From positions 124,001-188,000 of the forward strand of contig JACRQG010000032.1 of assembly GCA_016222805.1 (NCBI GenBank): a stretch of DNA of 64,000 bases, given 5' to 3'. The notes below the pieces were generated by a model. That model saw only the letters and a list, made by a program, of their open reading frames with translations. It was not told where the DNA came from and ran no database searches. This DNA is from Verrucomicrobiota bacterium. Lineage in GTDB: Bacteria; Verrucomicrobiota; Verrucomicrobiia; Opitutales; Opitutaceae. How positions within the stretch are numbered: the first letter of the stretch is position 1; each line of letters starts with the position of its first letter. This document shows positions 2,851-50,484 of the stretch, piece after piece. The position numbers and the translations under genes were made by a program.

Positions 2851-5800
2851 CTAGAACGTGCCTTTCACGCCCATGGTCCAGAGGGCGCCGTAGTAGGTGT
2901 AGGTGCGCGGGCGGGTGTAGGCGGGAGCGTTGGCGGAGATGGTGACCAGCGGCCGCGGCTCGTTGGCGAGGTTGCGCACCGAGGCGTAGAGCGCGAACCG
3001 CTTGTGGAAGCGGTACTCGATGTTGGCGTCCTGCACCATGCGCGTGTCCTGGGCGTCGTAGGTGCCGGGCGGCACGGACGCGCTGACGTTGGTGAGCGCG
3101 GCGCGCTGGCGGGCGATGCGAGAGACATTGTAGCGCACGAGGAAACGGCTGGAGGCGAAACTGGCGCCCCAATTCAGGACGCGCGGCGAGTAGCCGGAGA
3201 ATTCATCCACGCCCGATCCGGTGAGGCGCAGGTGGGTGCCGTTCAGCCAGAATTGGACGCCACGGGTCCACTTCGGCAGGGCGGTGAAAGGCTTGAGGGA
3301 CTGGCGCCAGCTCCACTCGAGGCCGTTGGTCCGGACGGAATTGTTGGAATTCTCCGTCGTGATCACGTCGTAGTCGAGGTAGTCGTCCGACAGCCCCATT
3401 TCGGCGAGCAGCGCCGGCGTGGCGTCGGAACGGCGCGACGTGAAGAAGCCGGTAATATCCTTGCGGAACAGGCTCACCGCGATGGTCGCGCCCTTCACGC
3501 TGTAGGATTCGAAGCTGAGGTCGAAGTTGTCGGCCGTCCAGGGCTCGAGGCCGGCGTTGGTGGTGGTGATGGTGCGGTTGGCCTCGACGGCGCCGGGATC
3601 GGTGATGGAGCGCGACGGGATGATGAAGTTGAGGTCCGGCCGGCCAATCGTGGCGGCGTAGGCGGCGCGGGCGACGAAGTTCTCACTGAACGAATAGCTG
3701 GCGTTCACGCTGGGATACACGTCGGCGTAGTGTTTCTTCGCGAAGGCCGCGCGCTCCTTGTACTGGAGCTTCGCGAGGGCCAGCGTGTCGGTCGTCACGC
3801 GGATCGGCCGGCCGGCGGCGTCGCGGATCAGGTTACCTTGGGCGTCCTGCTGGTAGGTGGCGCGAATGTCGTTGAGGCCGCCGGCGCCCTCGTCGTCCGT
3901 GCGTTCATAGCGGGCGCCGGCGACGAGCCAGAGGCGGTTGTCGAAGAGCTTGGCATCGGCGCGGAGATACCCCGCCGAAATTGTCTCCTTCAGTTCCTGC
4001 GAGCCGTTGACGCGCGAGGTGTGGTAGGACGCCTCGTTCAGGACGAAGTAAGAGGGGTTGGCCTCGTACAGCGCATAGACCTTGCGTGGATCGATCCACT
4101 TCACGCGGTCGCCGTTGCGGAAGGTTCGGACGCCGGAATAGGACCAGTTGATGAGATCGTAGTTGCCGACGAGGCGCTCGGGCGCAGTGGCGGCAAAGGT
4201 GGGCCGGAAGCTCCAAGAGCGGGTTTCGACGCGGATATCCCGCTCGGCTTTCGAATAGTCGAAGCCGGCCTTCAGGAGCACCGGCAGGCTCAGGCCCAGC
4301 GGTCGGCTCGCATTCAGCTTCAGCGTCGTGAGGTCGCTCTTCATGATCGGCTCCTGCGGAGAGGTGACGCTGTTGAGGGTGTAGAGCTGTCCGTCGGTGA
4401 TATCAATCGGCTGGCCGGCGCGGGTGGCGCGAACCACGGGAGGCGTGCCGAGGCGTTGCTGACCGAAGTTGTCCGCGCGCAGCACAAGGCCGGTGAGGTT
4501 GGCACTGACGGTCCCGAAGAAGTCGGCGCCGGGTTGCGCGCTCAGGGTTTCGCGGCGCGAATGGGAATGGGCCACGGTGGCCTCGGTCTTCCACCCATTG
4601 AAGTCACCCCGGTGTCCGAGGGCGCCGTGGCGCGTGGACTTGATCTGCTCCCGGTAGGTGTTCGCCAGGGTCGTCGTTCCCGCGCCCACCCCGGCGGCGT
4701 TGGCGGGAGCCCCCTGGGTGAAGTTCTCGCCGCCCGTAGCGCCAGCCCCGTAGGCCTGCGTGAATGTGCCGATGCGCGTGTGCACCACGTCCGTGGTGTA
4801 CTGGAAATTGGCGAAGAACGAGTGCCCGGGCAGCGGACGCCAGTCGGCGCGCACCGAGGCGACGTCGCGATCGCGCACCGCAATCTGGGCAGCGATGGCG
4901 CTCTGCGTCTGGACGAGCGTGACGCGGTTCCACGTCGGCACGAGGTTGTCCTTGTCCTCCCAGCGTGCGTTCTGGCCGAGGCTGAAGGTGAGCGCGAGTT
5001 TGCTGCTGATCGGCCGCGTGTAGGTGAGATCGTAGCCGGGGCGGAAGTGCGGCCCGTCGGTGCCCTTGTCGGCGCCGCCCACCTTGAACAGCTCGCGTCC
5101 GAGCGACGTGATGGGCTCGATGGTGGTGAGCAGGCCGAACAGGCTGTAGTTGAGTTGCGGATCGCGCCGGGCAAAGCCGCTCTTGCCGACCACGTTGATC
5201 ATCCCGCCCACCGCGTTGGCCGGCATGTCGGGCGTCGGCACCTTGGTCACCTCGATCCGATCCATGTTGGCGACGTTGGAGGCGGAGAACACGGCGCCGC
5301 GGGTCGAGGGCGAGTCGGTCGAAAGCTCGACGCCATCCACGGTGAGGATGGTGCCGCTGCCGGGCATGCCGCGGATCGTGGCTTCGCCGGGAATCGCGGG
5401 GCTCATCGAAACCTGGATTCCGGGCACGAACTTCAGGAACTCCCCGGGGTTGCCGTCGCCAAGGTCGCCGAATTCCTCAAAGGCGACGACGTTCTTGATG
5501 TTGGGAGCAATGCGCTGCTCCTGCAGGGCGGCGGACTGCGCGCTGAGCTCGCGTTCGGCCACCGTGAAGGTGTCGAGCACGATGGCCTGGTCGCGCGGGA
5601 CGCCGGCGGTCGAGGGCGCGAGGGCTTCGCGGGCACCGAGGTCGAAGTCCTGGCGGGCGGTCTGGCCAGCGGCGACGCGCACGCGGGCGGATTGCTGGCC
5701 GAGGCCGGCGACCGAAGCCCGGACGGTGACTTCACCCGCGGGCACGCCGGCCAGACGAAACTCACCGGCCTCATCCGTGAAGGTCTCGAGGGCCGTGCCG

Positions 5801-43797: not shown

Positions 43798-43845
43798 GAT
43801 CCCCTCTGGCAGAGGGGTGGCGCGCAGCGCCGGGGTGTGTTCCGG
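43798..43845 (-). repeat. ACACACCCCGGCG / CCCCTCTGCC-GAGGGG repeat, inverted copy
   Basis: Reverse complement of the unit found at 50162-50247 and 50401-50484: CCGGAACACACCCCGGCGC, then CCACCCCTCTGCCAGAGGGG with a 7-bp hairpin. Confidence 0.55.
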
Positions 43846-43892: not shown

Positions 43893-44387
43893 TCAGTTTC
43901 CGCCCAACGTCCGGCGCAGCCGGGCCAGCGTGCGGGCGGCGCGAGCGCGGGTCAGGGCATGCTCCCAGATCCGCAACACGCGCCAGCCGGCGCGGTGCAG
44001 GAGACGATTCACCTCCCGATCGCGGCGGCGGTTGGCGAGGAGCTTCTTCCGCCAGAAGGCGGCGTTCTTCTTTGGCCAGGTGGCGTGGAGCGGGCAGCCG
44101 TGCCAGAAACAACCGTCGACAAACACGGCGAGTTTCGCGCGGGAAAAGACGAAGTCGGGCCGGCCTGGCAGGGTCGATCCGCGCCGCCAGCCGGTGAGAC
44201 CATGGGCCCGCAGCAGCGCGATCAGGCGCAATTCGGTGTCCCGGTTGCCCGCGCCGCGGATGCGGGCCATGACGGCGGAGCGTTTCGCCTTCGAGAAGAC
44301 ATCGCTGGGCGTCAGGCGGGCGGATGCAAGTTTGCCGGGTTTGCCAGGACGAGACCGGCCGTGGGGTCCTTTTCCCTCCTTCTTCAT
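43893..44387 (-). CDS. vsr: Very short patch repair endonuclease (Vsr)
   Basis: 164 residues. Nicks next to T:G mismatches arising from 5-methylcytosine deamination. Family motifs are present: RSAVMARIRGAGNRDTELRL, PGRPDFVFSRAKLAVFVDGC, FWHGCPLHATWPKKNAAFWR, KKLLANRRRDREVNRLL and GWRVLRIWEHAL; these include the catalytic Asp of FVDG and zinc-type Cys/His. The ATG at 44387 has AAAGG 8 nt upstream. Vsr genes usually sit beside a cytosine methyltransferase; none is visible here. A truncated second copy lies at 45106-45384. Confidence 0.9.
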   Translation of the reverse strand: MKKEGKGPHGRSRPGKPGKLASARLTPSDVFSKAKRSAVMARIRGAGNRDTELRLIALLRAHGLTGWRRGSTLPGRPDFVFSRAKLAVFVDGCFWHGCPLHATWPKKNAAFWRKKLLANRRRDREVNRLLHRAGWRVLRIWEHALTRARAARTLARLRRTLGGN

Positions 44388-44482
44388 GCCGTTCGCCTTT
44401 GGTGGATTCAACCGCGGGTGCCCTCACTGAGGGGGCAGGAAATAACTTCACTCGTTGGTACCGCCCTCCGGGCTCCGCGGTA

Positions 44483-44824
44483 TCAGGCGACCACCTCCAC
44501 CCGATCGGAAAAGACGCGGATCAGTTTTGCCTGAGGAAGCTGCCGTTCGATTTCGGGCCACCAGCGGGCGAGCGTGGCATGGTATTCGCGGCGCCCGAGA
44601 TTTCCGAAGCAAAGGTGCACCACCCAGGGCGGTGGCCGACGCACGATGATCCGGTCGGAGAAGTCGGCATCCTTGGTGACGATTGCCAGCTCGTACTCCA
44701 GCGCGAAGGCCCAGATTTAACTGTCGGTTGGACTGGGGCCGACGCTGGTTGCCGCGATCACGGGCAACTGCGGAGCGCACGTCAGCCGCGCCGGAACATT
44801 CTGGTCGAGCAGCCAGCCCCTCAT
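44483..44824 (-). pseudogene. DUF5615 (PIN-like) toxin with in-frame stop codon
   Basis: Read from the ATG at 44824, the frame gives MRGWLLDQNVPARL, SVGPSPTDS, then TAA (44717-44719), then continues in the same frame as IWAFALEYELAIVTKDADFS, PPPWVVHLCFGNLGR and RVFSDRVEVVA to a TGA at 44483. These are the landmarks of DUF5615 Mut7-C-like PIN toxins (LDxNxP, DxxIW, TKDxDF). A single change (probably GAA to TAA) explains the interruption. Its ATG overlaps the stop of the DUF433 antitoxin gene (ATGA), the normal toxin-antitoxin layout. Confidence 0.85.
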
Positions 44825-45045
44825 GCCACCTTCACGACGGAATAATGGTTGGCCATCAAGCGGGACGCATAATCGAGGCAGGCTTGCACATCCGCGCGGG
44901 TTAGCGCCGGATACTCCTCCAGCAGATCCTCGACCGAGTCACCGGCGGCCAGGAACTCCAGCACGGTTTGAACGGTAATCCGGGTACCCCGCACGATGGG
45001 ACGCCCATTGCAGACGTCGGGTTGAATCGTGATGCGGTCGGACAT
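44821..45045 (-). CDS. DUF433 antitoxin (VapB-like)
   Basis: 74 residues: ITIQPDVCNGRPIVRGTRIT, VQTVLEFLAAGDSVEDLLEE, YPALTRADVQACLDYASRLM. This is the small helical DUF433 family that pairs with DUF5615 toxins. It would neutralise the neighbouring PIN-like toxin and bind their promoter. Here the toxin is interrupted, so the antitoxin is probably a leftover or could now act alone. It overlaps the toxin start by 4 bp. Confidence 0.9.
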   Translation of the reverse strand: MSDRITIQPDVCNGRPIVRGTRITVQTVLEFLAAGDSVEDLLEEYPALTRADVQACLDYASRLMANHYSVVKVA

Positions 45046-45105: not shown

Positions 45106-45384
45106 TCAACCGGTGACCCGCAGCCGCCGCAGGCGGGCGGCGGCGTGGGCCTTGGTCAGAGCGTGCTCCCAGATGCGCAACACCCGCCAGCCGGCGCGGC
45201 GGAGGAGGCGGTTGACCTCCCGGTCGCGGCGGCGGTTGGCGAGGAGCTTCTTCCGCCAGAAGGCGGCGTTCTGCTTCGGCCAGGTGGCGTGGAGCGGGCA
45301 GCCGTGCCAGAAACAGCCGTCGACGAAGACGGCGAGTTTCGCGCGGGGAAAAAGGAAGTCCGGCCGGTCTGGGTCGCTCAGTTG
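45106..45384 (-). pseudogene. 5'-truncated second copy of vsr
   Basis: The frame ending at the TGA 45106-45108 reads PDRPDFLFPRAKLAVFVDGC, FWHGCPLHATWPKQNAAFWR, KKLLANRRRDREVNRLLRRA, GWRVLRIWEHAL. It is nearly identical to the last 90 residues of the Vsr at 43893-44387, and the DNA is also very similar. Similarity stops at about 45375, right after the RPDF motif, where an in-frame stop and unrelated sequence follow. The catalytic Asp is kept but the N-terminal third is lost. Same orientation as the intact copy, with the toxin-antitoxin pair between them. Confidence 0.85.
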
Positions 45385-45703: not shown

Positions 45704-48418
45704 ATGGGGGTCGCCCGCAATTTAGTCCCGGGACTTTACGAGCAACTGATCGACTCCGAACTCGCAGAGGCGCTCGACGCCCAGCCAGAACTCAAGGCGT
45801 TTTTCGGCAAGCTCGACGACGAAGATGCTCCCCACGCCTACACGCAGTTCGTCTCCCAGCTTCTCGCACACGCGCTGCGCACGCGCAAACCGGAGGAACG
45901 TCTCCCGCTCGTCAATCGACTCATCACACTCATTTCCGCCACCGACGGGCTCGATTACCTCCAGCGTAGAACCCTCCTCGCCACAACTGAACCCCTTCTC
46001 CTCTCCCTTCAGTGCGTCGCCTCTGGCCAAACCGTCGCGCTCGGCCGACCGCAGACACCGCTCACCGCCAGCAGTCTCCTCACCGGTTCCCGCCACGATC
46101 CTCAACTTGAACACGAGCTGCGGCAAGAAATGGCTACTGCCGACCGGGTTGATATCCTTGTCGCTTTCATCAAGTGGACTGGCCTGCGTTTGCTTCAACC
46201 TGCGTTTGAAGTCCTCGCCGGTCGCGGTGTGCCAGTGCGGATCGTCACCACGTCCTACATGGGTGCTTCCGATCCCAACGCCATCGCTTGGCTCGCCGCC
46301 CGCCCCGGTTTCTCAGTAAAAGTTTCATACGACACGGAGCGCACGCGTCTACACGCCAAAGCGTACCACTTCCATCGTCGCAGCGGATTTTCCACCGGCT
46401 ACATCGGATCGGCGAACATGTCGCAGGCGGCCATGACCAGCGGCCTCGAGTGGACCATCAAAGTCACCGAGCAGGACCTGCCCCACATCCTCCAACGCTT
46501 TACCGCCGAGTTTTCCACCTACTGGGCCAGCCCTGACTTCGAAACCTACGACACCAGCCAAGCCACCCGCCTCTCCACCGCCATCCACCATGCCAAGACC
46601 GGCAACGACCCGAACAAATGCCGCTTCTTTGCTGACTTGCGTCCGCATCCGTTCCAAGAACGCATCCTCGAAGCGCTTGCCGCCGCGCGCGCTGCGGGCC
46701 AATTCCGAAACCTAGTCATCGCCGCTACTGGCACAGGCAAGACCGTTGTCGCCGGGTTCGATTACGTCCGCTTCGTTGCCCAAGCTACCGCCACTTCTCC
46801 CGGTGCCGCCGCGCCCGCACTCCTTTTTGTCGCTCACCGCAAAGAAATCCTCGAGCAGGCGCGCGACTGCTTCCGGACCCTTCTGCGCGACCCCAATTTC
46901 GGCGAACTCCTCATCGGCGGCGAACGTCCGCAAGACTGGCGCTATCTCTTCGCCTCGGTACAGAGCCTTCGATCCGCCGAGCCCTGGCATCACCACGGTG
47001 CCACTCACTACCCTTTTATCGTAATCGACGAGGCTCACCACAGTTCGGCCGACAGCTACCGACCGATTTTTGAGCATTACCAACCGGCCATCTTGCTCGG
47101 TCTCACTGCTACGCCGGAGCGCATGGACGGCACCTCGATCCTACCCGACTTTGGCGGTGAGTTTACCGCCGAAATCAGGCTCCCTGAGGCCCTCGAAGAA
47201 AAGCTGCTCTGCCCTTTCCATTATTTCGGCATCACCGATCCCGTTTCTCTTGCTGACGAACACTTCTGGAAAGCCGGCAAATACGACGTCGGTGCGCTTA
47301 CCACCGCTTACACCGGCGACGACATTCGCGCTCGCCAGCGCCTCGACGTCATCCTCTCCAGCCTTCGCCGCTACCAACCTGACCTTCGCCAAGTCCGTGC
47401 CGTTGGCTTTTGCGCCAGTGTGGACCACGCCAATTTCATGGCGGCCGCCTTTAAAGAGCAGGGCCTGCAGGCCGAAGTCATCGTCGGTGAAACGGTTCCC
47501 GACGTCCGCGCTGAACGTGTCCGTGATTTTCGCGCCGGTCGCCTGCCCTTTGTTTTCACCGTCGATGTTTTCAGCGAGGGCGTGGACGTTCCCGAGATCA
47601 ACCTCGTGATGTTCCTCCGCCCGACCGAGAGCCTCACCGTCTTTCTCCAACAACTCGGACGCGGCCTCCGTCACCATCGCGGCAAAGATTGTCTCACCGT
47701 CCTTGATTTTATCGGCCAGAGCCACCGTCGGTACCGCATCGATCGCAAATTTGCCGCCCTGCTGACTCGCGACCGACAGCGCATGGATCAGGAAGTCGAG
47801 AACGATTTCCCTCACCTACCGCCCGGCTGCAACATCCAACTCGAACGAATCGCCCGTGAACACGTCCTCGGCAACATTCGCGAAAATCTCAAGAACATCG
47901 GCACGCTTGTCACTGAAAGCATCGCGACCTTCGAACAAGATCACGGCTGCGCACCGACCTTCGCCAACTTCGTTCGCGCCACCGGCATATCGCCGCTTAC
48001 GCTTCTGAAGAACAAGACCTGGTCCGAATGGAAGGCCCTCGCTCGCCATGGCATCCTTCCCACCGACCCTGACCTCAAGGCCTGCCGCCAAGCCCACCGC
48101 CGCATCCTTCTGCGCACCGACCCGACCGCGCTCGCGCAACTCTCTGCTTTCGCGAGTAGCGAAAGTGCCGCAGGCGCCACCGACGGCCATTCTGGCGAAG
48201 CTGAAGATATCCGCTTGCACTATCTTCTGTGGGGCAAGAAAGGCGGTGATATCGGCGTGACCACCGTCGGTGAATCACTGGCGAAATGGCGCCGCAACCC
48301 AACCGCCCTACGCGATCTCGGCGAGATCGTTGAGCACGTTCAACGGCAGCACGCCTATCCAACCCCATTGCTTCAGTTTCCCTTCCCCTGTCGGTTTCAC
48401 CTTCATGCCGCCTACTGA
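45704..48418 (+). CDS. PLD-nuclease/DEAD-box helicase, stopped early (lacks DUF3427 end)
   Basis: 904 residues to the first stop. N-terminal segment GLYEQLIDSELAEALD, a phospholipase D-like domain (about 120-280, RLHAKAYHF with the HxK motif near 215 and GYIGSANMS), then superfamily 2 helicase motifs: AATGTGKTVV (Walker A, about 340), IDEAHH (about 442), LTATPERMDG, VFSEGVDVPEIN and QQLGRGLRHH. The family normally ends in a DUF3427 domain; here the TGA at 48416-48418 cuts it right after FPCRFHLHAAY. The rest is still present downstream (next entry). Base composition is visibly less GC-rich and codons less biased than in neighbouring genes, a sign of transfer. Such proteins occur in defence islands; the exact role is unknown. 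Confidence 0.85.
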   Translation: MGVARNLVPGLYEQLIDSELAEALDAQPELKAFFGKLDDEDAPHAYTQFVSQLLAHALRTRKPEERLPLVNRLITLISATDGLDYLQRRTLLATTEPLLLSLQCVASGQTVALGRPQTPLTASSLLTGSRHDPQLEHELRQEMATADRVDILVAFIKWTGLRLLQPAFEVLAGRGVPVRIVTTSYMGASDPNAIAWLAARPGFSVKVSYDTERTRLHAKAYHFHRRSGFSTGYIGSANMSQAAMTSGLEWTIKVTEQDLPHILQRFTAEFSTYWASPDFETYDTSQATRLSTAIHHAKTGNDPNKCRFFADLRPHPFQERILEALAAARAAGQFRNLVIAATGTGKTVVAGFDYVRFVAQATATSPGAAAPALLFVAHRKEILEQARDCFRTLLRDPNFGELLIGGERPQDWRYLFASVQSLRSAEPWHHHGATHYPFIVIDEAHHSSADSYRPIFEHYQPAILLGLTATPERMDGTSILPDFGGEFTAEIRLPEALEEKLLCPFHYFGITDPVSLADEHFWKAGKYDVGALTTAYTGDDIRARQRLDVILSSLRRYQPDLRQVRAVGFCASVDHANFMAAAFKEQGLQAEVIVGETVPDVRAERVRDFRAGRLPFVFTVDVFSEGVDVPEINLVMFLRPTESLTVFLQQLGRGLRHHRGKDCLTVLDFIGQSHRRYRIDRKFAALLTRDRQRMDQEVENDFPHLPPGCNIQLERIAREHVLGNIRENLKNIGTLVTESIATFEQDHGCAPTFANFVRATGISPLTLLKNKTWSEWKALARHGILPTDPDLKACRQAHRRILLRTDPTALAQLSAFASSESAAGATDGHSGEAEDIRLHYLLWGKKGGDIGVTTVGESLAKWRRNPTALRDLGEIVEHVQRQHAYPTPLLQFPFPCRFHLHAAY

Positions 48419-48831
48419 ACCTCCGAGATCAAAGCCGCACTCGGTCTTTGCACTCTGGAAAAACCGGGTCCGACCGGCGTCGGAGTGTTTCACGCTGAAA
48501 GCCACAAATGCTACGTGCATTTAGTGACATTTCGGAAATCGGAGCAGGATTTTTCGCCCACGACCCAGTATCGCGACTACCCAATCAGTCGCACGCAGCT
48601 GCACTGGGAAAGCCAGTCCACTACCACGCAAGACAGCCCCACCGGACAGAATCTCCTGCAGTTTAAGGAGCGCGGTTACACCATCCTCTTCTTTGCACGG
48701 CTGGAGAAGAGAATTGAGGACGCACCAGCTCCGTTTATCTTCCTGCAGATGGAAACCGCCCTATCTCAATCGTGTGGGAACTAGCCCACCCAATCCCCGC
48801 TGCGTTATTTGAAGAGGCGCGGGCCGTGTGA
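48419..48831 (+). pseudogene. Detached DUF3427 C-terminus of the helicase, frameshifted
   Basis: Directly after the stop, the same frame continues TSEIKAALGLCTLEKPGPTG, FRKSEQDFSPTTQYRDYPIS and LHWESQSTTTQDSPTGQ, clear DUF3427 signatures. Near 48745-48750 the frame changes: the family's terminal PISIVWELAHPIPAALFEEA is found in the -1 frame, running to the TGA at 48829-48831, while the original frame ends at 48783. So there are two lesions, a nonsense codon and a small deletion or frameshift that removed part of the segment before DGNRP. Confidence 0.8.
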
Positions 48832-48928: not shown

Positions 48929-48954
48929 GCGCGGCGGGGTCGCCGCGCCTACAG
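48929..48954. repeat. GCGCGGCG hairpin + CTACAGG repeat, copy 2 (inverted)
   Basis: GCGCGGCG (48929-48936), loop GGGT, CGCCGCGC (48941-48948), then CTACAGG: the reverse complement of copy 1. It sits at the 3' end of the vapC-like gene. Confidence 0.65.
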
Positions 48955-49362
48955 GGGTTTCAACCAAGTAATCTGAATCTCCGTCTCTAGCACCTTGAAT
49001 TCCGGATCGCCCGTGACCAGGTCGGCCTTCTTCTCCTTCGCCAACGCTGCCGCCAGCGCATCGGCCAGGCTCAGGCGGTGGCGGGCTTTGAACACCGCCG
49101 CCTGACGGGCGAGCTTCAGGTCGTCACCGATGCCGACGATGTCGATGGGCAGGGAGGCGATGACGCGGGCGTGCTCCTCGGCCGCCTCCTGGGAAACCTC
49201 GCGCATCGTGCTGTAGTAGATCTCGGCCCAGTTGATCGATGTCAGGTAAAGCCGGTACCGGTCGCGGCTCGCCTGGTGGAGGATTTCCTCGACCGCCGCC
49301 GCCGCCGGCTCGTCCTCGAAGAAGGCCAGCAGTGCCCAGCTATCCAGCACCTTGCCTGCCAT
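48949..49362 (-). CDS. vapC: VapC-type PIN-domain toxin
   Basis: 137 residues. PIN ribonuclease fold: LDSWALLAFFEDEP with the first acidic residue at Asp7, NWAEIYYS with Glu, LSLADALAAALA with Asp, and the final LVTGDPEFKVLE with Asp, giving the usual acidic quartet that holds Mg. Toxins of this family cleave RNA when free of antitoxin. The ATG shares one base with the antitoxin stop (TGATG). No damage visible, so this pair should be active. Confidence 0.92.
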   Translation of the reverse strand: MAGKVLDSWALLAFFEDEPAAAAVEEILHQASRDRYRLYLTSINWAEIYYSTMREVSQEAAEEHARVIASLPIDIVGIGDDLKLARQAAVFKARHRLSLADALAAALAKEKKADLVTGDPEFKVLETEIQITWLKPL

Positions 49363-49607
49363 CAGACGGCCCTCTCCTGTTTGCGATCCTGCAGCATCGC
49401 CTTCATCACTCCGCGGCCCTTCAACGAGCCGCGCAGGCTCCGGAGGTACGCGCGCGTGATGGGGCGGATCAGGATGCCCTCCGGCGTGATCGAAACCGAG
49501 GCTCTGGTGCCCTTTTCAATCTGGAATTCCCGGCGCAGTCGCGCCGGGATCACCACCTGGCCCTTAGTGGTGAACTGGACGGTTTCGGCCGCCGGTGTGG
49601 TAGTCAT
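49362..49607 (-). CDS. vapB: AbrB/VapB-type antitoxin
   Basis: 81 residues. SpoVT/AbrB swapped-hairpin DNA-binding domain: TVQFTTKGQVVIPARLRREF, QIEKGTRASVSITPEGILIR (about 8-50), then a C-terminal tail (LRGSLKGRGVMKAMLQDRK) that would wrap the PIN toxin. The ATG at 49607 gives the expected family start; longer frames upstream lie in repeats. Likely represses its own operon. Confidence 0.9.
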   Translation of the reverse strand: MTTTPAAETVQFTTKGQVVIPARLRREFQIEKGTRASVSITPEGILIRPITRAYLRSLRGSLKGRGVMKAMLQDRKQERAV

Positions 49608-49708
49608 GGTCAAATGGCATACGTGCTTCGCTTGGTAAGCCAAGAAAGGAAAGTAAGCCACAGCAGTGGAAGGACAGCTTGCACGGCCACGGCCGCCCGA
49701 CGTACGCC

Positions 49709-49979
49709 TCCCGCTCGCACGAGGATTCGCCTGCCCGGATTGGCGTGAGTGTGTCTGGATCCCTGAACCGAAGAAAGGCAGTTGAACCACGGATGAACGC
49801 GGTTGGACACGGATAAGGCCGGACTTCCGAAGGCTCCCCAACTCACCTGCCAGAGGAAGGTCCCGGCACCGGTGAATCCGTGTGTAGCGGTGTCCATCCG
49901 TGGTTAAAGGGTCCTGGTCTGTAGTTGTACTGCGGAATCCAGGCAGAAACCTCGTGGCTTCCCGCTCGCACGAGGATTC
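49709..49979. repeat. 20-bp direct repeats flanking the long palindrome
   Basis: TCCCGCTCGCACGAGGATTC occurs at 49709-49728 and 49960-49979, both on the plus strand; the second copy also pairs with CCTCGTG just upstream to form a 7-bp hairpin. The long palindrome 49785-49905 lies between them. Confidence 0.6.
49785..49905. repeat. Long-palindrome repeat AACCACGGATG...CATCCGTGGTT
   Basis: 11-bp perfect terminal inverted repeats, AACCACGGATG and CATCCGTGGTT, with further pairing inside (GGACACGGAT and ATCCGTGTGT), 121 bp in all. Best copy of the family also seen at 2469-2540 and 35576-35701. Confidence 0.7.
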
Positions 49980-50161: not shown

Positions 50162-50247
50162 GAGTGTCGTAAGTTGGACCGCACGTTCCGGAACACACCC
50201 CGGCGCTGGCGCGCCACCCCTCTGCCAGAGGGGATCTCGGGCAGACG
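50162..50247 (+). repeat. GTGTCGTAAGTTGGACCGCA repeat, copy A
   Basis: The unit starts GTGTCGTAAGTTGGACCGCA, continues through ACACACCCCGGCG, and ends with the hairpin CCCCTCTGCCAGAGGGG and ATCTCGGGCAGACG. Copy B at 50401-50484 is nearly the same; an inverted partial copy is at 43798-43845. Confidence 0.65.
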
Positions 50248-50400: not shown

Positions 50401-50484
50401 AGTGTCGTAAGTTGGACCGCACGTTCTGAAACACACCCCGGCGCGGCGCGCCAGCCCTCTGCCGGAGGGGATCTCGGGCAGACG
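50401..50484 (+). repeat. GTGTCGTAAGTTGGACCGCA repeat, copy B
   Basis: Second copy of the 50162-50247 unit, about 240 bp downstream. It differs by a few substitutions (CCGGAGGGG in place of CCAGAGGGG), so the stretch is a partial tandem duplication. Confidence 0.65.

Follow-up and report, generated by a model that had tools for sequence, protein, structure and literature searches.

A SauUSI-like gene broken twice near its 3' end

The window, the whole stretch of 64,000 nucleotides that was analysed, carries on its plus strand a SauUSI-like open frame of 904 codons (45704-48418), which starts with ATG, ends with TGA and encodes a PLD-type nuclease, an SF2 ATPase and a coupler. The nuclease domain covers residues 148-274 (46145-46525, PF13091), and the two halves of the ATPase domain lie at residues 313-473 (46640-47122, PF04851) and 564-657 (47393-47674, PF00271). 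The terminal TGA (48416-48418), at about residue 810 of SauUSI, is the first lesion. Past it, on the same strand, sequence of the reader domain (DUF3427) resumes in the frame of the body (48419-48745), as seen both in the alignment of relatives and in a match (E 4.8e-13) to positions 151-237 of the PF11907 profile, which has 280. A second lesion at 48746-48756 shifts the frame, so that the last codons of the reader (48757-48831) stand in another frame and finish at the original stop codon (48829-48831). When read past the TGA, the frame of the body meets a shifted stop at 48782-48784. A search of the genome to which the window belongs with the DUF3427 model of Pfam returned a single match, the broken gene itself, with one TGA within it.

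We compared this arrangement with 33 loci of relatives taken from GTDB contigs. The tail alignment comprised 29 of them (L061, L062, L064 and L065 were left out), and the codon alignment 26 (L063, L066 and L067 were also left out). The frame was open to the end, 141-176 residues beyond the match end, in all loci except L065 (51% identity), which is interrupted near its start. A sense codon was found at the place of the TGA in 29/29 aligned relatives, and equally in the 26 of the codon alignment. The spacing between two conserved anchors was 11 nt in the broken gene versus 36 nt in 25 relatives and 33 nt in the remaining one, so that the second lesion amounts to a net loss of 25 nt. As judged from these alignments, both breaks are real departures from the relatives. 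The preliminary description, which had reported an in-frame TGA at 48416-48418, a frameshift or deletion near 48747 and an otherwise intact body of 904 codons, was thus borne out on all three points.

Homologues that naturally lack the end of the protein were also looked for, and 32 of the 33 loci have it. We extended the comparison to a phylum sample of 383 genomes, 25 of which, including that of the window, gave a match at 1e-150. Of the other 24 holders, 22 showed open frames of at least 1026 aa, a count that refers to frame length only. In G349 the frame runs to the contig end. G450 (L113, G450:C77; 39% identity) was the only one of the 24 to stop inside the reader, at locus position 3891-3893. 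Some 70 residues of its reader precede this stop, which corresponds to position 166 of a profile of 250 and thus lies in a different place from the TGA of the broken gene and not at the border between coupler and reader. Since the G450 contig ends only about 0.1 kb past the stop, a second case of decay and a faulty contig end fit equally well, and the odds of the readings weighed below are unaltered by it.

The gene belongs to the SauUSI family of type IV restriction enzymes

The best PADLOC family for both the body (E 3.1e-177) and the tail (2e-18) was mREase_IV (PDLC03659), which is the name of a profile and not a tested function. The best sequence match in the PDB was 7clg, that is SauUSI of Staphylococcus aureus, with an E value of 2.2e-75 for the gene alone and 2.2e-125 with a family profile that covers residues 42-915 of the 953 of 7clg. 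The N-terminal PLD nuclease domain (PF13091, 2.1e-08; PF09565, 8.4e-08) and the SF2 helicase-like ATPase domain (PF04851, 2.5e-32; PF00271, 7e-14) are both present. The gene is therefore a SauUSI-like type IV (methylcytosine-dependent) restriction enzyme gene, and it shares with SauUSI the order PLD nuclease, SF2 ATPase, coupler and DUF3427/SRA reader. Unlike SauUSI, the copy in the window is interrupted twice, once where the reader begins and once near its end. The SRA-fold reader is still encoded, but it lies outside the predicted product, behind the TGA, and is split again by the second lesion; because the reader is missing from the product, we classed the gene as a broken copy and not as a working member of the family. 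According to PMC7913695, SauUSI is a dimer composed of a nuclease (1-191), an ATPase, a coupler (618-805) and a reader of the SRA fold (806-953); recognition of 5-methylcytosine by this reader activates the ATPase. ATP-dependent cleavage by the S. aureus enzyme of 5mC- or 5hmC-containing DNA with two sites is described in PMC7913695 and PMC3874153. Among the literature matches listed, no paper was evidently on SauUSI-like genes of Opitutaceae.

The stop falls at the border of the reader

An intact relative, L037, carries the C-terminal DUF3427 reader, and we modelled the fold of its last 250 residues with an alignment of 26 rows (L037 and 25 relatives). The model reached a mean pLDDT of 91.9. 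Its residues 91-245 matched SauUSI 7clg_B (Z 12.3, rmsd 4.3, 160 aligned) and the SRA domain of SUVH5 (Z 8.0, rmsd 3.1, 122 aligned), as well as other readers of cytosine modification, and Foldseek returned 7clg_A for the model at 2.7e-6. The intact relatives are nevertheless remote from SauUSI: where the C-terminal folds align, identity is 18%. Counted by hand in the profile alignment, the TGA stands at about residue 810 of SauUSI, whose reader starts at 806; the stop is thus no more than about five residues from the border between coupler and reader. In the L037 model, the same place is residue 105, as read from the alignment, which would leave about 14 residues of the fold in the product. 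Behind the second lesion lie most of the strand 211-224 and all of the strand 230-235 and of the helix 241-248. Either lesion by itself removes reader sequence, and the predicted product would be a nuclease, motor and coupler without a reader. The earlier statement that, with UGA as a plain stop, the C-terminal domain is missing from the protein was therefore right, and the place of the stop at the border between coupler and reader makes it more precise.

UGA does act as a stop in this DNA, where TGA ends nine of the 11 window genes checked. The genome gave nine matches to the tRNA-Sec model, two of them above the cut-off. ARAGORN assigned the eight matches that have a locus to tRNA-Ser (four), Leu, Cys, Trp and Gly, so that no selenocysteine tRNA was present among these eight (the ninth match, the weakest, has no locus). 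Selenocysteine insertion or a general recoding of UGA was rejected on these two grounds.

The tail shows no detectable decay

We compared the 904 codons of the body and 105 codons of the tail with those of intact relatives. The pN of body and tail of the broken gene were, respectively, 0.106 and 0.104 against L036, 0.091 and 0.078 against L037, 0.116 and 0.135 against L038, and 0.113 and 0.121 against L042. With pS values of 0.56-0.83 against the broken gene, synonymous sites are near saturation, which makes dN/dS rough. On a fixed tree of 15 genes (the broken gene and 14 relatives, L045 being omitted as a near-copy of L043), the ratio of tail to body on the terminal branch was 0.81 for the broken gene, 0.36-2.23 for the other 14 genes and 0.63 for the whole tree. 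At otherwise invariant columns, the broken gene had five private changes in the body and two in the tail, compared with 1-10 and 0-4 in the other genes. Its body retains 196 of 197 family-invariant columns; in a leave-one-out comparison, the 26 relatives missed 0 to 12 of 197-209. Relaxed selection in the tail was thus not detected by pN, private changes or the branch ratio on the 15-gene tree. The body, which looks undamaged, together with a tail in which no decay is detectable, indicates that the lesions are either recent or artefacts. So little decay beside two lesions calls for a loss that is recent or was selected, or for an artefact.

Origin of the gene

The preliminary description considered that the gene looked acquired and then damaged. 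The identity rankings of two neighbouring genes support the first part: GltB is 87% identical to that of G006, from the same genus, and 75% to that of G239, from another genus, whereas the broken gene is 76% identical to its relative in G006 and 85% to that in G239. This conflict supports horizontal transfer, and the absence of both lesions from the relatives compared supports the damage that followed. The argument from composition held only in part. The body has a GC content of 0.606 and a GC3 of 0.691, below the GC3 of 0.78-0.92 calculated for six large reference genes of the window. Its codon-usage index of 0.50, however, is not unique: the six large genes range from 0.495 to 0.81, one of them being equally low. 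Among five smaller window genes, two have a GC3 of 0.71-0.73, and the index of the AbrB gene is lower still (0.41). Low GC3 is moreover mostly a family trait, being found in 13 of 14 close relatives (0.55-0.74, versus 0.82 in one), and accordingly argues only weakly for a recent acquisition.

A match at 1e-60 or better was found in 19 of 252 family genomes, that of the window included. The congeners G019 and G025 gave no SauUSI-like match at this threshold despite conserved gltBD, which indicates that the neighbourhood of gltD is variable. We did not find an insertion boundary beside gltD in six relatives: L110, L111 and L112 extend at most 2 kb past gltD, and conservation in the remaining three was confined to gltBD, plus Vsr in two. 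At E 1e-5, searches of plasmid and phage collections returned only relatives of less than 60% identity (458 plasmid and 2129 phage records).

Cytosine methylation and the neighbouring genes

In the genome of the window, which is 95.6% complete, a search with PF00145 (C5-methyltransferase), the one model used, gave no match. The idea that the gene was lost because it clashed with cytosine methylation by the host itself thus has no present support. Among the 252 family genomes, PF00145 was found in two of the 13 that carry a close relative (identity of 72% or more) versus 105 of 239 others (Fisher p 0.047), in a comparison that, like its variants, was post hoc and uncorrected for kinship. The values were 1/13 versus 105/239 (p 0.009) when only matches over the cut-off were counted, 0/9 versus 79/156 (p 0.003) in good-quality genomes, 2/12 (p 0.076) without the genome of the broken copy, and 5/19 versus 102/233 (p 0.16) with all 19 holders at 1e-60. 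The scarcity was not repeated in the phylum sample (13/25 versus 206/358, p 0.68).

Two Vsr sequences lie on the minus strand of the window, a full gene (43893-44411) and, upstream of it, a fragment of 70 residues (45163-45372), with a DUF433 gene (44821-45045) between them. Both copies share a direct repeat of 254 bp, 88% identical (43915-44168 and 45119-45372). They are the only Vsr matches of the genome at E 0.001, despite the lack of a PF00145 match. Vsr genes or fragments were also present within about 2 kb of SauUSI-like genes at L036:4203-4673, G238:C35:17518-17727 and G120:C327:28216-28461, and about 1 to 7 kb from gltD in the congeners G006 and G019 (L107:2283-2726 and L108:3828-3965). 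Of the 13 genomes with close relatives, six have Vsr, near the gene in three, including that of the window, and on another contig in three.

Directly downstream of the broken gene, on the minus strand, is a pair composed of a PIN-domain toxin and an AbrB/MazE-type antitoxin (48949-49841). Copies of a short interspersed repeat (44-49 bases, 93-98% identity) occur at 43798-43845, 50188-50236 and 50430-50473, the orientation on one side of the broken gene being opposite to that on the other. The nearest relative genome (G239:C60, L037 and L035) carries a second, remote SauUSI-like gene (32% identity, about 1260 residues) about 1.7 kb behind the intact one. Beside intact relatives we observed endonuclease-like genes that formed BLAST clusters of seven and three among 25 loci; the cluster of seven includes both L043 and L045, whose genes are near-identical. 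Examples, delimited by a crude ORF caller, are L037:6404-7234, L048:11181-11990, L040:6328-7335 and L044:6561-7499, and HNH family matches were found in those of L037, L040 and L044, the three that were scanned.

Discussion

The locus very probably contains a SauUSI-like type IV restriction gene that arrived by horizontal transfer and whose function was recently lost. In an intact enzyme, the SRA-fold reader at the C terminus would bind methylated cytosine and turn on the SF2 ATPase via the coupler, and the translocating dimer would then cut DNA with the PLD nuclease. In the broken copy, the in-frame stop would remove nearly the whole reader, and the deletion of 25 nt would independently ruin the end of its fold. 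A product without the reader switch should not restrict modified DNA, and restriction has most likely been lost. The lesions, the gene family, the reader fold in an intact relative and the place of the stop are observed, whereas this inactivity, like the order and the cause of the two lesions, is inferred.

An error of sequencing or assembly, with one or both lesions false and the gene intact in the organism, could account for a tail protein as conserved as in intact relatives, and the comparison contains one genome per species, so that no second strain backs the lesions. A frame-keeping stop codon and a loss of 25 nt would nevertheless be unlike the usual one-base error in a run, and the neighbouring gltB and gltD align uninterrupted to those of G006 (L107), over 1553/1554 and 498/498 residues; we consider an error unlikely. 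Recoding, in which UGA would be read through and the later frame change would be programmed, is suggested by the fact that both halves of the gene are still recognisable. It can hardly be upheld, given the tRNA matches and the usual role of TGA in the window, and it could not supply the coding sequence missing at the second lesion.

The truncated protein might instead still be useful, acting without a reader by another route, for example through a target-finding partner or by inhibiting dimers. The position of the stop at the coupler/reader border, the conservation of the body with no excess of private changes and the remote relative G450, which likewise lacks the end of its reader, are all consistent with this proposal. 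The reader is, however, read through in 32 of 33 loci, and G450 stops inside the reader near a contig end and not at the border. Moreover, the lesions seem too recent for the conservation of the body to say anything on selection after truncation. A useful truncation is therefore improbable, even more so than an error in the sequence. In its stronger version, the product would be a natural reader-less SauUSI, a complete nuclease-motor-coupler with another targeting factor or a dominant inhibitor, and G450 would be another instance in which the reader was shed; to this version we give slightly less credence still.

Loss of function of an enzyme of this kind also has a known counterpart. PMC4373697 reports loss of sauUSI function in the S. 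aureus laboratory strain RN4220 and in the CC5 strains N315, Mu3 and Mu50, by natural mutation in CC5. There too a type IV enzyme lost its function, in another organism and possibly by a different kind of mutation. Since such loss has already been reported, the event described here is not new in kind. The gene is most likely an ordinary inactivated defence gene of a known kind, whose tidy feature is a stop at the border of the reader. It offers a case in which one lineage gained a methylcytosine-dependent barrier and, apparently recently, lost it, and close intact relatives of up to 85% identity are at hand for comparison. If the strain is cultured, its transformation with cytosine-methylated DNA is predicted to be easier than that of relatives whose copies are intact.
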